From: an uncultured Ilumatobacter sp.
GTDB taxonomy: Bacteria > Actinomycetota > Acidimicrobiia > Acidimicrobiales > Ilumatobacteraceae
NCBI GenBank assembly: GCA_905182555.1
Contig: CAJJBX010000009.1
Location: 124,001 to 188,000 of the forward strand
Direction of reading: 5' to 3'
Length of the DNA stretch: 64,000 bases
Part shown: positions 13,983 to 36,040 of the stretch, piece after piece
Position numbering within the stretch: position 1 is the stretch's first letter
Layout of the letters: every line of letters begins with the position of its first letter
Program-made: the position numbers and the translations under genes
Notes under the pieces: model-generated
The model's database searches: none
Told to the model about the DNA's origin: nothing
The model's input: only the letters and a program-made list of their open reading frames with translations

Positions 13983-14837
13983 ATGGCTGTGATCTTGATG
14001 AACGGAAATGCACTGCGGGACGAGATCATTGCCGGGCTGCGCGTGACGGTCGATGCCGCAGGTTCGCCTGCCATCTGCCTCGCCACAGTACTCGTTGGCA
14101 CCGACGGCCCCTCGCAGCGCTACGTCGCCAGCAAGCACAAGAAGGCCGTCGAGGCTGGCTTCGAGGCGCGCCACGTCGACCTTGCCGAGACCGCCACGCA
14201 AGATGAAGTCGAAGCCGTGGTGCGCGAACTCGCAGCGGACGACTCGGTGCATGGCATTCTCGTCCAGCTGCCCCTACCCGATGGTCTGGATCCTGAGCCC
14301 GTACTCGACCTCATCCCCGCGGACAAAGACGTCGACGGGCTGACCGAGAGGTCGATGGGTCGTCTGGTCCGTGGCCGCCCGGGCCTCGTTGGATGTACGC
14401 CGTTGGGCGTCATGCGGCTACTTGAGAAGTACGAGGTGCCAACTTCGGGTGCTCGTGCGGTTGTCATTGGTCGGTCGACGCTCGTTGGACTGCCGTTGTC
14501 GCTGCTGCTCAACCGCAAGGGCGTCGACGCCACGGTGACAATGGCGCACTCCCGAACCGCCGACATGGCAGCCGTGTTGCGCGAAGCTGACATCGTCATT
14601 GGCGCCGCTGGCCAAGCCCGCATGATCACCCCCGAGATGATTAAGCCAGGAGCGGCTGTCATCGATGTCGGTGTCTCACGAACAGAGGCAGGGATTGTCG
14701 GCGACGTCGACCCGGGCGTTGCCGAGGTGGCGCGTTGGTTGACGCCGATGCCGGGCGGCACCGGCCCGATGACGATTGCCTGCCTGATGGAGAACACCCT
14801 GACCGCAGCACGCTTGCAGGGCGCCTTTCCTGCCTGA
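13983..14837 (+). CDS. folD: Bifunctional methylenetetrahydrofolate dehydrogenase/cyclohydrolase
   Basis: DDSVHGILVQLPLPDGLDPEPVLDLIPADKDVDGLTERSMGRLV...VVIGRSTLVGLPLSLLL. Confidence 0.96.
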   Translation: MAVILMNGNALRDEIIAGLRVTVDAAGSPAICLATVLVGTDGPSQRYVASKHKKAVEAGFEARHVDLAETATQDEVEAVVRELAADDSVHGILVQLPLPDGLDPEPVLDLIPADKDVDGLTERSMGRLVRGRPGLVGCTPLGVMRLLEKYEVPTSGARAVVIGRSTLVGLPLSLLLNRKGVDATVTMAHSRTADMAAVLREADIVIGAAGQARMITPEMIKPGAAVIDVGVSRTEAGIVGDVDPGVAEVARWLTPMPGGTGPMTIACLMENTLTAARLQGAFPA

Positions 14838-14867
14838 TTGCCAAACGATCGATTCACACGGTACGAT
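14838..14867 (+). promoter_or_regulatory. Candidate sigma70-type promoter for the ilvB leader transcript
   Basis: TTGCCA (14838-14843), 18-nt spacer, TACGAT (14862-14867). Confidence 0.5.
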
Positions 14868-14876
14868 GACTCCATT

Positions 14877-14927
14877 ATGGAACTCACGGGCGTGCCGCAC
14901 ATTGCCCTCGTAGTACTTATTCGGTAG
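14877..14927 (+). CDS. ilv leader peptide MELTGVPHIALVVLIR
   Basis: 16-aa ORF with 8/16 Leu/Ile/Val residues ending just before a rho-independent terminator upstream of ilvB. Confidence 0.88.
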   Translation: MELTGVPHIALVVLIR

Positions 14928-14956
14928 CACGCCCGGCTTTTGCTGCGCGTGCTCCT

Positions 14957-14988
14957 CGACCTCCCAGCCGGGAGGTCGTTTGCTTTTT
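14957..14988 (+). terminator. Rho-independent attenuator terminator of the ilvB operon
   Basis: CGACCTCCC-AGCC-GGGAGGTCG then TTTGCTTTTT. Confidence 0.9.
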
Positions 14989-15040
14989 CGCCGTCAATCG
15001 ACATCAATCACATTCCCTCTTGAACTGAAAGACCAGTCAC

Positions 15041-16847
15041 ATGGCTGATTCACCAGCAACACCTGAACGGCTCCGTGCGCGACTACGTGTCCGAGCACCT
15101 GCACGAGTGGGTCGACCTGATCTTCGGCTACAAGCAGGCCCTACACTTACGACCTCACGTCATCCACGGCGCTGTGCGCCACGTGCTCGTGCGCCACGAA
15201 CAGGGTGCTGGCCACGCTGCCGAGGGATACGCGCATGTGTCCGGCAAGCCGGGCGTCGCCATGGTCACGTCCGGGCCGGGAGCGACCAACCTCGTCACGC
15301 CGCTGATGGACGCCTTCATGGACTCCATTCCAATGGTGGCGATCACCGGCCAGGTTCCAACTGCCGCGATTGGCAGCGATGCATTCCAGGAGTGCGACAC
15401 CGTTGGCATCACGCGGTCGTGCACCAAGCACAACGAGTTGGTCATGTCGGCCGACGAGATCCCGATGGCGATCCGCCAGGCCTTCCACATTGCCACCACG
15501 GGTCGCCCAGGCCCCACCCTCGTCGATATCCCGAAGGATGCACTGACGAACGAGATGGAGTGGTACTGGCCGACCGACGAAGAGGTCCAGGCGGCGTTGC
15601 CTGGCTATCGGCCGAATACCAAGGGCCATCCCCGGATGATCAAGGAAGCCGCCAAGCTGATCCTCGCCTCCGAGCGGCCGATCGTCTACGCCGGTGGCGG
15701 TATCTTGAAGGCGCGTGCGGCGCAAGCGCTGCGAGAACTCGTCGAGTTGATCGATGCGCACGTCGTGACCACCCTGATGGCGCGCGGCGCATTCCCTGAC
15801 GAACACCCGCTCTGTCTGGGCATGCCGGGCATGCACGGCAATGCATCGGCGATCACCGCAATGCAGCAGTCCGATCTGCTGATCACACTCGGCGCACGTT
15901 TCGACGACCGCATCACGGGCAAGGTCGACGCGTTCGCACCCGAGGCGAAGATCATCCACGTCGACGTTGATCCGGCCGAGCAGGGCAAGGTCCGGCGTCC
16001 AGACGTGCCCATCGTCGGTGACGCCAACTACGTGATTCTCGAAATTATCCGCGAAATCAAAGAGCTACTTCAGGGCGGCACGCGTCAGGCCGACACCAGC
16101 GCCTGGAAGAGCAAGATATCGGGGTGGCGAGAGCAGTTCCCGATGACCTACGAGCCGTCCGAGCCCGGCGGGCTGCTGAAGCCGCAGTACTGCATTGAGC
16201 AACTCAACAAGTACGCGCCGAAAGGCACAATCGTTGCGTCGGGCGTTGGACAACATCAGATGTACACGTCGCAGTACTGGAAGTTCAACGACCCCTACAC
16301 GTGGGTCAACTCAGGTGGCCTCGGCACGATGGGCTTCTCGATCCCGGCAGCAATTGGTGCAAAGGCCGCCATGCCCGACCGCACCGTTTGGGCCGTCGAC
16401 GGTGACGGTTGTTTTCAGATGACGGCAACCGAACTGGTCACGGCAACACTCGAAAAGCTTCCAATCAAGGTCGCGCTGCTGAACAACAGCTTCCTCGGCA
16501 TGGTCCGGCAGTGGCAGGAAATGTTCTACGACGAGCGCTACTCCTCGGTGTTCCTCGACAGCGCGAACGTCCCGAACTTCGTGATGATGGCGGAGTCGAT
16601 GGGCTGCGTCGGCATTCTTGTCGAGTCACCTGAAGAGGTTGGCCCAGCGATCGAGCGGGCGAACTCGATTAACGACCGCACCGTCGTCGTCGAGTTTCGC
16701 ACCGACGCCACCGAGGGTGTGTTCCCGATGGTGCCGGCAGGTGCGGGCAACAGCGAGCTGATTTTGCACCCGACACAGAGCGACCCGACTCGGACGCTCC
16801 AACCCGAACCGAAGCCGATCGACACCAAGTTGAAGGATGCCCACTGA
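15041..16847 (+). CDS. ilvB: Acetolactate synthase large subunit (apparent indels in the N-terminal 100-130 nt)
   Basis: AVRHVLVRHEQGAGHAAEGYAHVSGKPGVAMVTSGPGATNLVTPLMDAFMDSIPMVAITGQVP; MADSPATPERL start at 15041 lies in another frame. Confidence 0.95.
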
Positions 16848-16848
16848 G

Positions 16849-17427
16849 ATGGCTCGAACTCGCGATGTTTCTGGTGCGCGCACCGCCAACACCTACTCCG
16901 CCGACATGAATCATCACATTCTGTCCGTCCTTGTTCAGAACCGACCTGGAGTCCTTGCTCGTGTGTCTGGTTTGTTCGCACGGCGTGGCTACAACATCTT
17001 CAGTCTTGCTGTGGCGCCGGCTGAAGAAGAGGGCCGCAGTCGGATCACGATCGTTGTCGACCTCGACTCGGCACCGCTCGAACAGATCACGAAGCAGCTG
17101 TTCAAACTGATCGATGTCATCAAAATCTCGGAACTCGACCCGTCGCGCAGCGTCGAGCGTGAGCTGCTCATCGCTACTGTCAAGGCGGCCGGCCCGAAAC
17201 TGGCTGACGTGTCGACCCTGGCCGAGATCTTCGAAGGCAAGATCATCGCCGTTGCTGAGGACCTTGTCACCGTCAGCCTTGAGGGTCACCCCGACAAGCT
17301 GGACGATTTTGAGGATTTACTCGGCCGACATGGCATTGTTGAGCTGCAGCGGACCGGTCGTGTGGCTTTGCCCAAGCTCGACCGAAGCTCGCGTCATCGC
17401 TCAACCGCACTGAGGCAACCGCACTGA
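16849..17427 (+). CDS. ilvN: Acetolactate synthase small subunit
   Basis: HHILSVLVQNRPGVLARVSGLFARRGYNIFSLAVAPAEEEGRSRITIVVD. Confidence 0.95.
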   Translation: MARTRDVSGARTANTYSADMNHHILSVLVQNRPGVLARVSGLFARRGYNIFSLAVAPAEEEGRSRITIVVDLDSAPLEQITKQLFKLIDVIKISELDPSRSVERELLIATVKAAGPKLADVSTLAEIFEGKIIAVAEDLVTVSLEGHPDKLDDFEDLLGRHGIVELQRTGRVALPKLDRSSRHRSTALRQPH

Positions 17428-17830: not shown

Positions 17831-17885
17831 AATTGGAGGGGAATTGGAGGGGAATTGGAGGGGAATTGGAGGGGAATTCGAGGGG
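17831..17885. repeat. 5 x 11-bp tandem repeat AATTGGAGGGG (last copy with one substitution)
   Basis: Counted directly; between the ilvY-like start and ilvC. Confidence 0.96.
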
Positions 17886-18013
17886 AGCGAGAAGAGGGAG
17901 GGGAGTGCTGCATAAAGCAGGATGAAGCATTGCATATATGTCAATTTCCGAAACGACCACCGACCGTTAGGATCAGGTCGTCCAACCGTTCGACCTCCGA
18001 TGGAGTCCACCCC

Positions 18014-19487
18014 ATGGCCAACTACTTCAATACCCTCCCGCTTCGAGAGCAGCTCGCCGAACTCGGCAAGTGCCGTTTCATGCACCTTGACGAATTCACC
18101 GAGGGCGTCGACGCACTCAAGGGCAAGAAGATCGTCGTGATCGGCTGTGGTGCGCAGGGCCTCAATCAGGGTTTAAACCTTCGAGACAGCGGCCTGAATG
18201 TGTCCTTCACACTTCGGCAATCTGCGATCGATCAGCGAAGAGACTCTTGGAAGAACGCCACGTCGAATGGCTTCGCTGTCGGCACCTACGAAGAGCTGCT
18301 GCCCACCGCTGATGTGGTTTTGAATCTCACCCCAGACAAGCAGCACACCCCGGTGGTCAACGCGATCATGCCGCTCATGAAGCACGGCGCTACTCTGGCC
18401 TATTCTCACGGCTTCAATATTGTTGAAGAGGGCATGCAGATTCGCGATGACATCACGGTCATCATGGTTGCTCCGAAGTGCCCGGGCTCAGAAGTTCGCG
18501 CCGAGTACGTGCGCGGCTTTGGTGTGCCGACCTTGATTGCCGTGCACGAGGACAACGATCCGAACGGTGAGGGTCTCGCTCTCGCCAAGGCTTATGCCGT
18601 GGGCACGGGCGGCCACCGCGCGGGCGTGCTGGAGAGCTCGTTCGTCGCCGAGGTCAAGAGCTGACCTCATGGGTGAGCAAACGATCCTGTGCGGCATGTT
18701 GCAAACCGGCTCGCTGTTGTGCTTCGACAAGATGATCGAAGAGGGCATCGATGCTGGCTATGCCTCGAAGCTGATCCAGTACGGCTGGGAGACGACCACC
18801 GAAGCGCTGAAGTACGGCGGCGTCACCAACATGATGGACCGCCTGTCGAACCCGGCGAAGATTCGAGCCTTCGACCTGACAGAACAGATGAAGGACATCA
18901 TGCGTCCGCTCTACTGGAAGCACCAGGACGACATCATGACGGGCACGTTCTCGTCAGGAATGATGGAAGACTGGGCCAACGATGACGCCAAGCTGCTCGG
19001 CTGGCGTGCGGACACCGCAGAAACAGCGTTTGAAAAGACGCCAGCAGGCGACGTCGAGATCTCCGAGCAGGAGTACTTCGACAACGGCATTCTTATGGTC
19101 GCCATGGTGAAGGCCGGCGTCGAGCTTGCCTTCGAAACCATGACTGCCGCAGGCATCATTGCCGATTCGGCCTACTACGAGTCACTTCACGAGACGCCGT
19201 TGATTGCCAACACCGTCGCCCGCAAGAAGCTCTACGAAATGAACGCGACCATCTCGGACACTGCCGAGTACGGCTGCTACCTGTACAACCACGCCTGCGT
19301 GCCGTTGTTGGGTGAGTTCATGAAGGGCATCTCGACCGACGTCATCGGCAAGGGTCTGGACCTCAGCGACACCGGCGTCGACAACGCCCGCCTCATCGAG
19401 GTGAACGCAGCAATCCGCAGCCATCCGGTTGAAGCGATCGGTGGCGTCCTGCGCGGCTACATGGCCGACATGAAGCAGATCATCTAG
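18014..19487 (+). CDS. ilvC: Ketol-acid reductoisomerase, class II (long, E. coli-type), with one frameshift near 18660
   Basis: [26 protein letters not shown]...[31 protein letters not shown]...; continues after frameshift [25 protein letters not shown]...; about 490 aa total. Confidence 0.93.
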
Positions 19488-33180: not shown

Positions 33181-34160
33181 ATGCGTTCAACAGAACGGTC
33201 CACCCGCAAGAAACTCATCGGTGCCGTAGTGGCACTCGCCTTCGTTGCAGCCGCATGCGGCAGCGACGCAGCCGACAACACGAGCGCAGACGCTCCGACC
33301 GGAACGGAGGCACCCGCTCCGACCGGAACGGAGGCACCCGTCGAGGCAGAGCCGGCCAGCACCGAGGCCCCGGCTGACACAACCCCCGCAGAAGTCGAGG
33401 AGCCCGGCGTTCCAGAGCGAATCATTTCGCTCAGCCCGACGCATACCGAGATCATGTTCGCGATCGGTGCGGGCGAACTACTCGTTGCTGTCGACGACTT
33501 ATCGCTTTGCGGCGCAGAACCTAGCTGGGAGGTCTTTGGGCGAGTCGACCGGGCCTCTGCCGGGTGTAGGGGTCGTGTCTCGAGACGGCTTGCTGACCCC
33601 CCCTGCCGTCTCGGCGACCAGCTCGCAGAGCATGCACCTCGACTGGTCGGCCATGGCGCCGCTGGGCTGCAGCAGTTTGCTCACGTGGCAAGTGCTGCAC
33701 CGTCGAAACGGCGCTGCTGGCGACGCTTGACATGCAGACCCGTCTCGCCGCAGCGATCGCTGCAGCACCGCAGGCCGAAGCTTCGTTGAGCATTTACCAC
33801 GAGCTCGATCCGACGTTCTACAGCTCGGACTCGACGACGTTCATCGGTGAGATCTACACATTGCTCGGACTCCAGAACATCGCCGACCAGGCTGAGGGTG
33901 ACAACTTCGGATACCCGCAGCTGAATGCTGAGTTCATCGTTTCTGCCAACCCGGACCTGATCTTCCTTTCTGACACCAAGTGCTGTGACCAGACCATCGA
34001 AACAATTGGCGCCCGCGATGGCTGGGACGTCATCGCTGCGGTCCAGAACGGCAACGTCATTGAGATGGATGATGACGTTGCGTCACGTTGGGGCCCGCGT
34101 GTCGTTGACTACGTGGAAGCAGTTTCGGCAGCGATTCAAGCCGCTGCGATTCCGGCGTAG
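33181..34160 (+). CDS. ABC transporter substrate-binding protein (BtuF/FecB-like lipoprotein); middle about 33510-33735 scrambled by frameshifts
   Basis: Lipoprotein signal FVAAACGSDAADN; PERIISLSPTHTEIMFAIGAGELLVAVDD; C-terminal part LSIYHELDPTFYSSDSTTFIGEIYTLLGLQNIAD. Confidence 0.85.
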
Positions 34161-34170
34161 TTTCTTTCTG

Positions 34171-35240
34171 ATGTCTTCTCTCGCAACGAGCTCCGAACAG
34201 GCAGTGCCTGCGCGGGGCCCGTTGCGAGATGGAGTCTGGTTCATGGGTGCCGCCACGGTGCTGCTTGCGGCGATCGTGTTCGGCTCTTCGATCGGGCCGG
34301 CCGGGCCCGATTGGTGGCGTGTGCCGCTCGAGCTCCTCAACCGTCTGCCGCTAATCGACTTCGATTCAGGTGTGTCTGACGGTGAATGGGCAATTGTCTG
34401 GAAGATCCGGATGCCGCGCGTCGTCCTCGGTGGGCTTGTCGGCGGCATGTTGTCGATCGCTGGAGCCGCCTATCAGGGCGTGTTCCGCAACCCACTCGTT
34501 GATCCCTACCTCCTTGGTGCAGCAGCCGGAGCCGGCCTCGGGGCGACCATTGGCCTGACGATCGGTCGCAGCGCCACCTCCGGCTGGCCAGTCGATCCTG
34601 TCCCTGCAATCGCATTCGTCTTCGCTGTCACAACAGTGATGGTCACGTACGCAGTCGGTGCGGCGTTCGGTGGTTCGCGCACCGGTGTCACGCTCGTCTT
34701 GGCCGGTGTCGCAGTGGTGTCGTTCACGTCTGCAATTCAGGCGTTCATCTTGCAGCGCAATCTTGACGTAATTCGCGAGGTGACGCGCTGGCTGCTCGGC
34801 AGCCTCACTCGATTAGTGAGAGACGTTCGGCTCGTCTTGCCATGCTCTCCCTTGATCTGTTTTTGATCATGCATCGTCGACACCTCGATGTGTTTCGTGT
34901 CGGCGACGAAGAAGCCGCAACGTTGGGTGTTTCGGTTCCCCGAACCCGGCTGGTCATCGTGGTTGCCGCAACACTTGGAACTGCTGCGGTGGTGTCAGTG
35001 AGCGGGCTGATTGGCTTCGTTGGCCTGGTCGTGCCACACGTGATTCGACTCATCGCCGGAGCAGGGCACCGGCGACTCTTGCCGCTCTCGATGATGGGAG
35101 GGGCCGCATTCATGATCCTTGCCGATGTTCCCGGGCGAATGCTGACACGGCCAGCAGAGACCCCGATTGGGATTGTCACGGCGTTCGTCGGGGCCCCGTT
35201 CTTTCTGTATCTCCTCCGCACGAGGCGCGTCGGAGCATGA
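34171..35240 (+). CDS. Iron/cobalamin ABC transporter permease (BtuC/FecCD family), frameshift near 34805-34840
   Basis: RMPRVVLGGLVGGMLSIAGAAYQGVFRNPLVDPYLLGAAAGAGLGA...; then VSGLIGFVGLVVPHVIRLIAGAGHRRLLPLS. Confidence 0.9.
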
Positions 35241-36040
35241 GCACTCTGACGCTGGAGGACGTTGTAGTTCGCTACAACAAGCGTGGTGTGTCGGCGTTGG
35301 CTGGCTATTCCGATGTGATTTTGCCTGGCGAGTGGCTCGGCCTTATTGGGCCGAACGGTGCCGGCAAGTCGTCGTTACTGAAGGCGATTGCCGGACTGGT
35401 TCGTTCTGATGGTTGTCTCGCTGTCGATGGCGTTGTACTTGGCGACCTCAACGACCGGTCTCGAGCAGCGCTTGTTGCTTATGTTGCGCAGGATCCGTTG
35501 ATTCCCAACGACATGACCACACGTGAATACGTGCTGCTCGGTCGGACGCCCTACATTGGCTACTTCGGCTCACCGACCAGAGCCGATCACCGAGTCGTTG
35601 ACGATGTACTCGAACGGCTTCGCCTCGGTGGGTTCGCCAACCGCTTACTTGGTGAACTGAGCGGGGGAGAGCGCCAACGCATCGTTCTTGCTCGGGCGCT
35701 GGCTCAGCAGGCGCCGATCTTGCTGCTTGATGAGCCGACGTCAGCTCTCGACATCGGTCACCAGCAGCAGGCGCTCGAACTGGTGGCCGAACTCCGTCGA
35801 ACCGAGGAAATCACCGTGATCAGTGCGTTGCATGATTTGACGCTTGCGGGGACCTACACCGACCGCTTGGTGATGCTTCACCACGGTGATGTTGTTGCAT
35901 CTGGTGATGCTGCTGATGTGCTTACGGCAGACCGTCTCGGTCAGATCTACAACGTGTGTGTCACGGTTGAAGTGGACGTTGATGAGTTGGGCAACCGTCA
36001 GGTGGTCGTTGTCCCGCGCCGTGGCTTCCCCGCGCCATGA
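35237..36040 (+). CDS. ABC transporter ATP-binding protein (BtuD/FepC-like)
   Basis: GLIGPNGAGKSSLLKAIAGLV...LSGGERQRIVLARALAQQAPILLLDEPTSALDIGHQQQ. Confidence 0.94.
   Translation: MSTLTLEDVVVRYNKRGVSALAGYSDVILPGEWLGLIGPNGAGKSSLLKAIAGLVRSDGCLAVDGVVLGDLNDRSRAALVAYVAQDPLIPNDMTTREYVLLGRTPYIGYFGSPTRADHRVVDDVLERLRLGGFANRLLGELSGGERQRIVLARALAQQAPILLLDEPTSALDIGHQQQALELVAELRRTEEITVISALHDLTLAGTYTDRLVMLHHGDVVASGDAADVLTADRLGQIYNVCVTVEVDVDELGNRQVVVVPRRGFPAP

Follow-up and report, generated by a model that had tools for sequence, protein, structure and literature searches.

How might an actinobacterium tie the transcription of its branched-chain amino acid genes to the supply of the amino acids themselves, when the RNA ahead of those genes appears to offer no antiterminator? 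The attenuators of the E. coli trp and ilvGMEDA operons combine a leader peptide of product codons, an intrinsic terminator and the coupling of transcription to translation. Those before actinobacterial ilvB genes are an old puzzle: they have a leader peptide and a terminator but a weak antiterminator or none, and exchanging codons in Streptomyces was without effect. Here, we address a locus of this kind in an uncultured Ilumatobacter (genome of 2.56 Mb, about 73% complete), lying in a stretch of 64,000 nucleotides that was analysed as a whole and is called the window below. The genus is judged from IlvB, which is 97% identical to that of the nearest named record, an uncultured Ilumatobacter sp. 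From folD to ilvBNC, the order is a sigma-70-like site, a leader ORF, a hairpin (A), a terminator (T) with its tail, and then ilvB, ilvN and ilvC:

13983-14837, plus strand: folD (ORF; Pfam THF_DHG_CYH and THF_DHG_CYH_C)
14838-14867, plus strand: sigma-70-like promoter-like site TTGCCA-18-TACGAT (sequence scan)
14877-14927, plus strand: leader ORF MELTGVPHIALVVLIR, 16 codons, ATG at 14877, stop TAG at 14925-14927 (homologous leaders)
14907-14921, plus strand: regulatory codon run CTC GTA GTA CTT ATT (LVVLI, -6 to -2 from the stop)
14926-14953, plus strand: hairpin A, a stem of 11 bp that begins at the stop codon (fold; genus conservation; covariation)
14957-14978, plus strand: terminator hairpin T, CGACCTCCC-AGCC-GGGAGGTCG, 9 bp, arms 14957-14965 and 14970-14978 (conserved; covarying at its base)
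14979-14988, plus strand: bipartite U tract TTTGCTTTTT (TTTNNTTTTT-like tail in most relatives)
15041-16847, plus strand: ilvB, acetolactate synthase large subunit, ATG at 15041
16837-17427, plus strand: ilvN, acetolactate synthase small subunit (Pfam ACT_AHAS_ss, ALS_ss_C)
17855-19487, plus strand: ilvC (ORFs; Pfam KARI_N 17918-18661, KARI_C 18660-19484)

The folD stop codon ends at 14837, the base before the -35-like hexamer, and the 400-nt region holds one sigma-70-like site (0.0 on average in shuffles) and one terminator-like site (0.3 on average). An intrinsic terminator thus lies between a leader ORF and a biosynthetic gene, and a short ORF of product codons, the translation of which is predicted, lies between promoter and terminator, which would make the locus a ribosome-mediated attenuator in the broad sense. 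Single bases of the assembly need caution because both the ilvB start and the ilvC frame are disturbed: compared with a close relative whose frame is intact there (L011), the ilvB frame is broken near 15060-15175 and clean from about 15171, while ilvC is split across two overlapping frames (18537-18664). These breaks could be errors of the metagenome assembly or real damage.

To place the leader among its relatives, ilvB loci were gathered by protein search and their upstream regions were then read, keeping 72 distinct loci with a terminator core of the CCTCCC/GGGAGG type and a leader ORF that is rich in Ile, Leu and Val over its final eight codons; the remaining ilvB loci are contig edges or variants outside this search pattern. 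We built a covariance model (R1) on 44 of the 72 leaders. Searched against 296 Acidimicrobiia genomes it matches 215 (E<=0.001), and in a sample of 248 genomes drawn from across the phylum it matches 63 (E<=0.01). The recurrence of leader ORF and terminator at ilvB in most Acidimicrobiia, beyond chance, is in our view solid as a comparative result, and the comparison of homologous leaders that the original prediction had offered as its check comes out in favour of both elements. Against Rfam 15, a search that would include the ilvB-OMG, T-box and ppGpp riboswitches if present in that release, nothing scored above the gathering score in the window's leader or at 16 loci with related leaders.

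The leader ORFs before ilvB end in L-V-V-(L/V)-I, with Val at -4 from the stop in 92% and Ile at -2 in 62% of the 72 leaders. Of 226 valine codons in the leader ends, 124 (55%) are GTA; within the ilvB genes the figure is 50 of 3342 (1.5%). In the window, the -10 hexamer stands 9 nt before the leader ATG; a -10-like hexamer, usually CANACT, is found 6-10 nt before the leader start in 61 of the 72 loci, and the mRNA is therefore probably leaderless or nearly so.

Between leader ORF and terminator lies hairpin A, absent from the original prediction although it is the local minimum-energy fold. All 11 of its pairs are kept in four members of the genus (the window and three relatives), through exchanges of G-C to A-U, A-U to G-C and C-G to U-A. 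Across 35 sister leaders, each of the nine modelled pairs of A is double-changed with pairing kept, and the structure as a whole has 61 double-changed cells, as against 18 in shuffles (0 of 500 shuffles as high). The stem measures about 10-11 bp across leaders, and its start falls 0-4 nt past the first base of the stop codon (0-3 nt in 112 of 113 leaders). The gap from A to T is 0-4 nt in 71 of the 72 ilvB leaders and 3 nt in the window, where the two hairpins share no base; in the sister leaders described below it is 1-5 nt (cimA), mostly 2-6 nt (leuB) or looser, up to 11 nt (leuA). A second frame, opening from a GUG in the 3' arm of A, is open in some loci and was not seen to be conserved. 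Longer versions of hairpin A occur in two ilvB leaders of another class (L244 and L241, family f88), with the terminator core CCCTCC/GGAGGG.

When full-length leaders are folded, T forms with a mean probability of 0.98. Its 5' arm motif CCTCCC (14960-14975 with its partner in the window, and in homologues) is near-invariant even where the partner goes from GGGAGG to GGGGGG, a constancy that exceeds the needs of stem pairing, and the U tract TTTNNTTTTT is bipartite throughout the homologues. Two other roles were considered for these arms. For GGGAGG in the 3' arm as a Shine-Dalgarno sequence no conserved start codon was seen, for CCUCCC in the 5' arm as an anti-Shine-Dalgarno mimic no conserved partner was seen, and the leuB and cimA terminators have other cores.

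Many genomes give a second match to R1. In the window's own genome, a second leader-hairpin-terminator device precedes leuA (G000:C19:21657-21763; L128:1001-1107), and its leader is poly-leucine, MQRSITVSFLLLLLM. Before cimA (citramalate synthase, TIGR00977), leaders end in I-I-I-I; such poly-Ile leaders are found in the window's family (L129, L130, L132, L133, L137, L140 and L142), and leaders of Val and Ile precede leuB-ilvE-cimA in the rest of the order (L131, L134, L138, L141 and L203-L231). The Ile/Leu/Val codons among the last seven number 0/22/0 for leuA, 39/2/5 for cimA, 42/2/37 for the leuB operon and 63/108/209 for ilvB; that is, 22 of 22 are Leu before leuA and 39 of 46 are Ile before cimA, and the leuB-ilvE-cimA leaders use Ile and Val with 2 Leu among 81. 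These samples are small for leuA (6 leaders, from the 6 of 30 leuA loci that yielded a leader with terminator) and for cimA (11 leaders). As the scan took the frame with the most Ile, Leu and Val codons, their total count is biased upwards; the choice among the three, and the scarcity of Leu in the leuB leaders, are free of this bias. In the same scan, none of 441 control regions had an Ile/Leu/Val run of at least four together with a terminator. The codons match the product gene by gene, and the leader codons are therefore most likely read by ribosomes, for which this is the best evidence we can offer; such matching argues strongly for the sensing of charged tRNA.

Our main reading, to which we give a probability of about 0.85, is that the leader is a ribosome-mediated attenuator that would sense how far the tRNAs for Val, Leu and Ile are charged and control ilvBNC. 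This part of the original prediction is upheld by the leader ORF, its regulatory codons, the terminator, the upstream promoter-like site, the class-wide conservation and the product-matched paralogues; the word 'complete' has to be given up, as no antiterminator was detected. Transcription would start at or near the leader ATG, with a ribosome following RNA polymerase. When amino acids abound, the ribosome would get past LVVLI as far as the stop codon (14925), T would form and transcription would end near 14988. With a branched-chain amino acid short, the ribosome would stall on the GTA, CTT or ATT codons, hairpin A would form directly ahead of it, and the polymerase would continue into ilvB.

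On the textbook footprint, the leading edge of a ribosome lies 13 nt past the first base of the codon in the A site. With codon -4 in its A site, a ribosome would have its edge about where A begins, and at the stop codon it would cover the 5' arm of A. The hairpin is thus well placed to report the position of the ribosome, since a ribosome on the GTA codons would leave its 5' arm just exposed and one at the stop would hide it. For a ribosome at -4 and a formed A, the unpaired RNA between ribosome edge and T comes to 3 nt (10-90%: 1-5); for a ribosome at the stop it comes to 18 nt (16-23). The direction of control, from stalling to readthrough, is inferred by analogy with the homologues in Mycobacterium tuberculosis and Corynebacterium: M. 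tuberculosis ilvB1 has an LVVI uORF and an attenuated leader transcript, and induction is lost when LVVI is changed to AAAA, so stalling must give readthrough (PMC13236596).

What would prevent termination is a harder question, and several answers have to be weighed. The original prediction gave the classical one, a 1:2 helix of CGGGCGTGC (14887-14895) with GCACGCCCG (14927-14935), a 2:3 helix of CCCGGCT (14932-14938) with AGCCGGG (14966-14972) and the terminator as 3:4, the first two competing and mutually exclusive. Both helices are present in the window where they had been placed, as are the leader ORF and terminator, and within the window sequence a 9-bp match of the 1:2 kind arises in just 0.24% of shuffles (4.8% for a 7-bp match of the 2:3 kind). 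Going from the window to its three genus relatives, however, the 1:2 helix falls from 9 to 7, 6 and 3 of 9 pairs and the 2:3 helix from 7 to 6, 5 and 4 of 7, whereas no pair of hairpin A or T is lost in any of the four; A, moreover, occupies the same bases and is the predicted fold. No antiterminator helix that shares bases with T is kept in the relatives. Searching the 72 ilvB leaders for an upstream partner of either T arm, by duplex energies against shuffles, gave no excess: the hairpin region or leader end against the T arms had mean z of +0.37 to +1.18 (positive meaning weaker), and the leader against the hairpin region was at chance (z +0.04). Nor did 113 leaders of four gene families show an antiterminator pairing, the complementarity of A and T arms (3' with 5' and 5' with 3') being without excess at z +0.14 to +1.35. 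With the named helices breaking up in the genus and T at a probability of 0.98, the two competing pairings may be a local accident, and we regard the classical layout as very improbable. It is harder still to credit that T is a mere folD terminator beside a fortuitous leader ORF, or that the leader is a riboswitch: folD does end directly upstream, but a promoter-like site stands between it and the leader, leader ORF, A and T form a conserved set that appears again before leuA, cimA and leuB, and no Rfam family matches the leader.

How a formed A would prevent T is the least certain step, because the two share no bases; as equilibrium folding does not make them exclusive, the antitermination step itself is an inference. 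When A is freed, T gains a mean of 1.0 kcal/mol in the ilvB leaders (equilibrium folding), being weakened by more than 1 kcal/mol in only 7 of 72. That a free A does T no harm leaves exclusion without pairing, kinetic effects, or a weak pairing of the A 3' arm with the T 5' arm. This last would resemble trp with its first region moved past the stop codon, where A would hold its own 3' arm and so guard T, and a covered 5' arm would free the 3' arm to pair with the 5' arm of T and prevent termination. Before the 3' arm of T exists, its 5' arm is indeed paired more often with the 5' arm of A covered than free (0.29 v 0.14 for ilvB, 0.43 v 0.06 for cimA, 0.31 v 0.17 for leuA and 0.56 v 0.10 for leuB), T is weakened by a mean of 3.6 kcal/mol in the leuB leaders, and Ile at -2 would put a stalled ribosome over part of A. 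Striking as it is in single leuB leaders, the complementarity is in no group stronger than between shuffled arms (z +0.36 to +1.35), T still wins by a mean of more than 10 kcal/mol, the most constrained stall codons (-4 and -5) leave A free, and starvation would act no differently from a ribosome that waits at the stop; the idea deserves a hearing and is, on this evidence, unlikely. We find it distinctly improbable that antiterminator and terminator overlap by a few bases at their feet, as proposed for C. glutamicum, where the hairpins share only a GCC trinucleotide (PMC11857589). A does abut T, with the 0-4 nt gap in 71 of 72 ilvB leaders, but the two are 3 nt apart in the window with no base in common, and freeing A weakens T by no more than 1 kcal/mol in 65 of the 72. 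Given an attenuator, the suggestion that we tentatively favour for the missing step is steric exclusion, in which A would cut the tether from about 18 to about 3 nt: with the ribosome against A and the polymerase against T, T could not fold into the polymerase exit channel because only about 3 unpaired nt remain. That such attenuators exist phylum-wide without a base-paired antiterminator, the stalled ribosome, the stop-codon hairpin and the abutting terminator excluding one another by space, is a speculative extension, and we would sooner bet against it than for it.

Several known systems bear on the main reading, that of a ribosome-mediated attenuator. For ilvB attenuators there is experimental backing from both Corynebacterium and M. 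tuberculosis (PMC10272879, PMC11857589, PMC13236596). The M. tuberculosis work describes for ilvB1NC a Rho-independent terminator roughly 120 nt away from the start site and a need for the regulatory codons, and the likeness to our locus extends to a uORF rich in branched-chain amino acids ending in LVVI, to GUA codons and to ilvBNC downstream (PMC13236596). It draws mutually exclusive antiterminator and terminator folds, whereas here A and T have no overlap and we found no exclusive fold; the sister leaders before cimA and leuB-ilvE-cimA, seen in our comparison, are absent from that account as far as it is available (PMC13236596). In C. glutamicum, the ilvBNC terminator has been proven by mutation (PMC11857589), and GUA is named as a regulatory codon there and in M. 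tuberculosis (PMC13236596, PMC11857589). The Corynebacterium ilvB-II motif shares with our leader a uORF of 15-17 codons, two hairpins, a U-tract terminator and conserved GUA/CUU control codons; its P1, however, spans the uORF, and either a trinucleotide is common to antiterminator and terminator or the pairing involves the P1 loop (PMC10272879, PMC11857589). Our locus falls outside that motif, since the first hairpin here starts at the stop codon, after the uORF. The effect of the C. glutamicum antiterminator was estimated to be far weaker than computed (-1.5 vs -6.8 kcal/mol; PMC11857589), which fits a minor role for base-pair competition.

Leader peptides with terminators before ilvB have been known in Actinobacteria since 2005 (Seliverstov 2005, PMC1262725). 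Those candidates, like ilvL and leuL of S. lividans (PMC8079986), have short ORFs with Ile/Val/Leu runs and, before ilvB, a terminator; the Streptomyces lividans leaders also have a leaderless start (PMC8079986), and components of the classical attenuator were noted as missing in many of the actinobacterial cases (PMC1262725, PMC8079986). Acidimicrobiia lay outside both surveys (PMC1262725, PMC8079986). For leuA, the Actinobacteria and Streptomyces show a LEU-element pseudoknot or no terminator (PMC1262725, PMC8079986), in contrast to the hairpin and terminator before leuA in the window's genome. One result counts against an attenuator: in Streptomyces coelicolor, swapping the candidate regulatory codons of ilvB was without effect on regulation, at least as summarised in a later paper (Craster 1999, in PMC1262725), and by analogy this would weigh against our reading as well. 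Unlike the E. coli trp and ilvGMEDA attenuators, the present locus has no detectable 2:3 antiterminator, a uORF that is probably leaderless and a hairpin at the stop codon.

What is new, judged from sequence comparison, is the Acidimicrobiia-wide set of four genes, the hairpin anchored at the stop codon and the lack of a visible antiterminator. Our full-text literature search, with partial coverage, found nothing joining Acidimicrobiia with attenuators and nothing on a cimA leader peptide; as far as the literature searched shows, these would be the first attenuators described for cimA and for leuB-ilvE-cimA. The comparative set, with four gene families, product-matched codons and a covarying hairpin, shows what selection keeps and drops, makes the missing antitermination step testable and offers a natural series of switches for Leu only, Ile only, Val and Ile, and all three.

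Outside Acidimicrobiia, leaders ending in V-I-I or similar stand before citramalate-synthase-like genes at three loci (L250, L251 and L254) and also carry a CCTCCC/GGGGGG terminator core, which suggests that the device may have a phylum-wide origin. Elsewhere in the window, an AdoCbl riboswitch (RF01482, 32971-33109) precedes genes resembling a cobalamin ABC transporter, with a permease-like ORF at 33985-34866 and an ATPase-like one at 35237-36040; the first two frames look broken.
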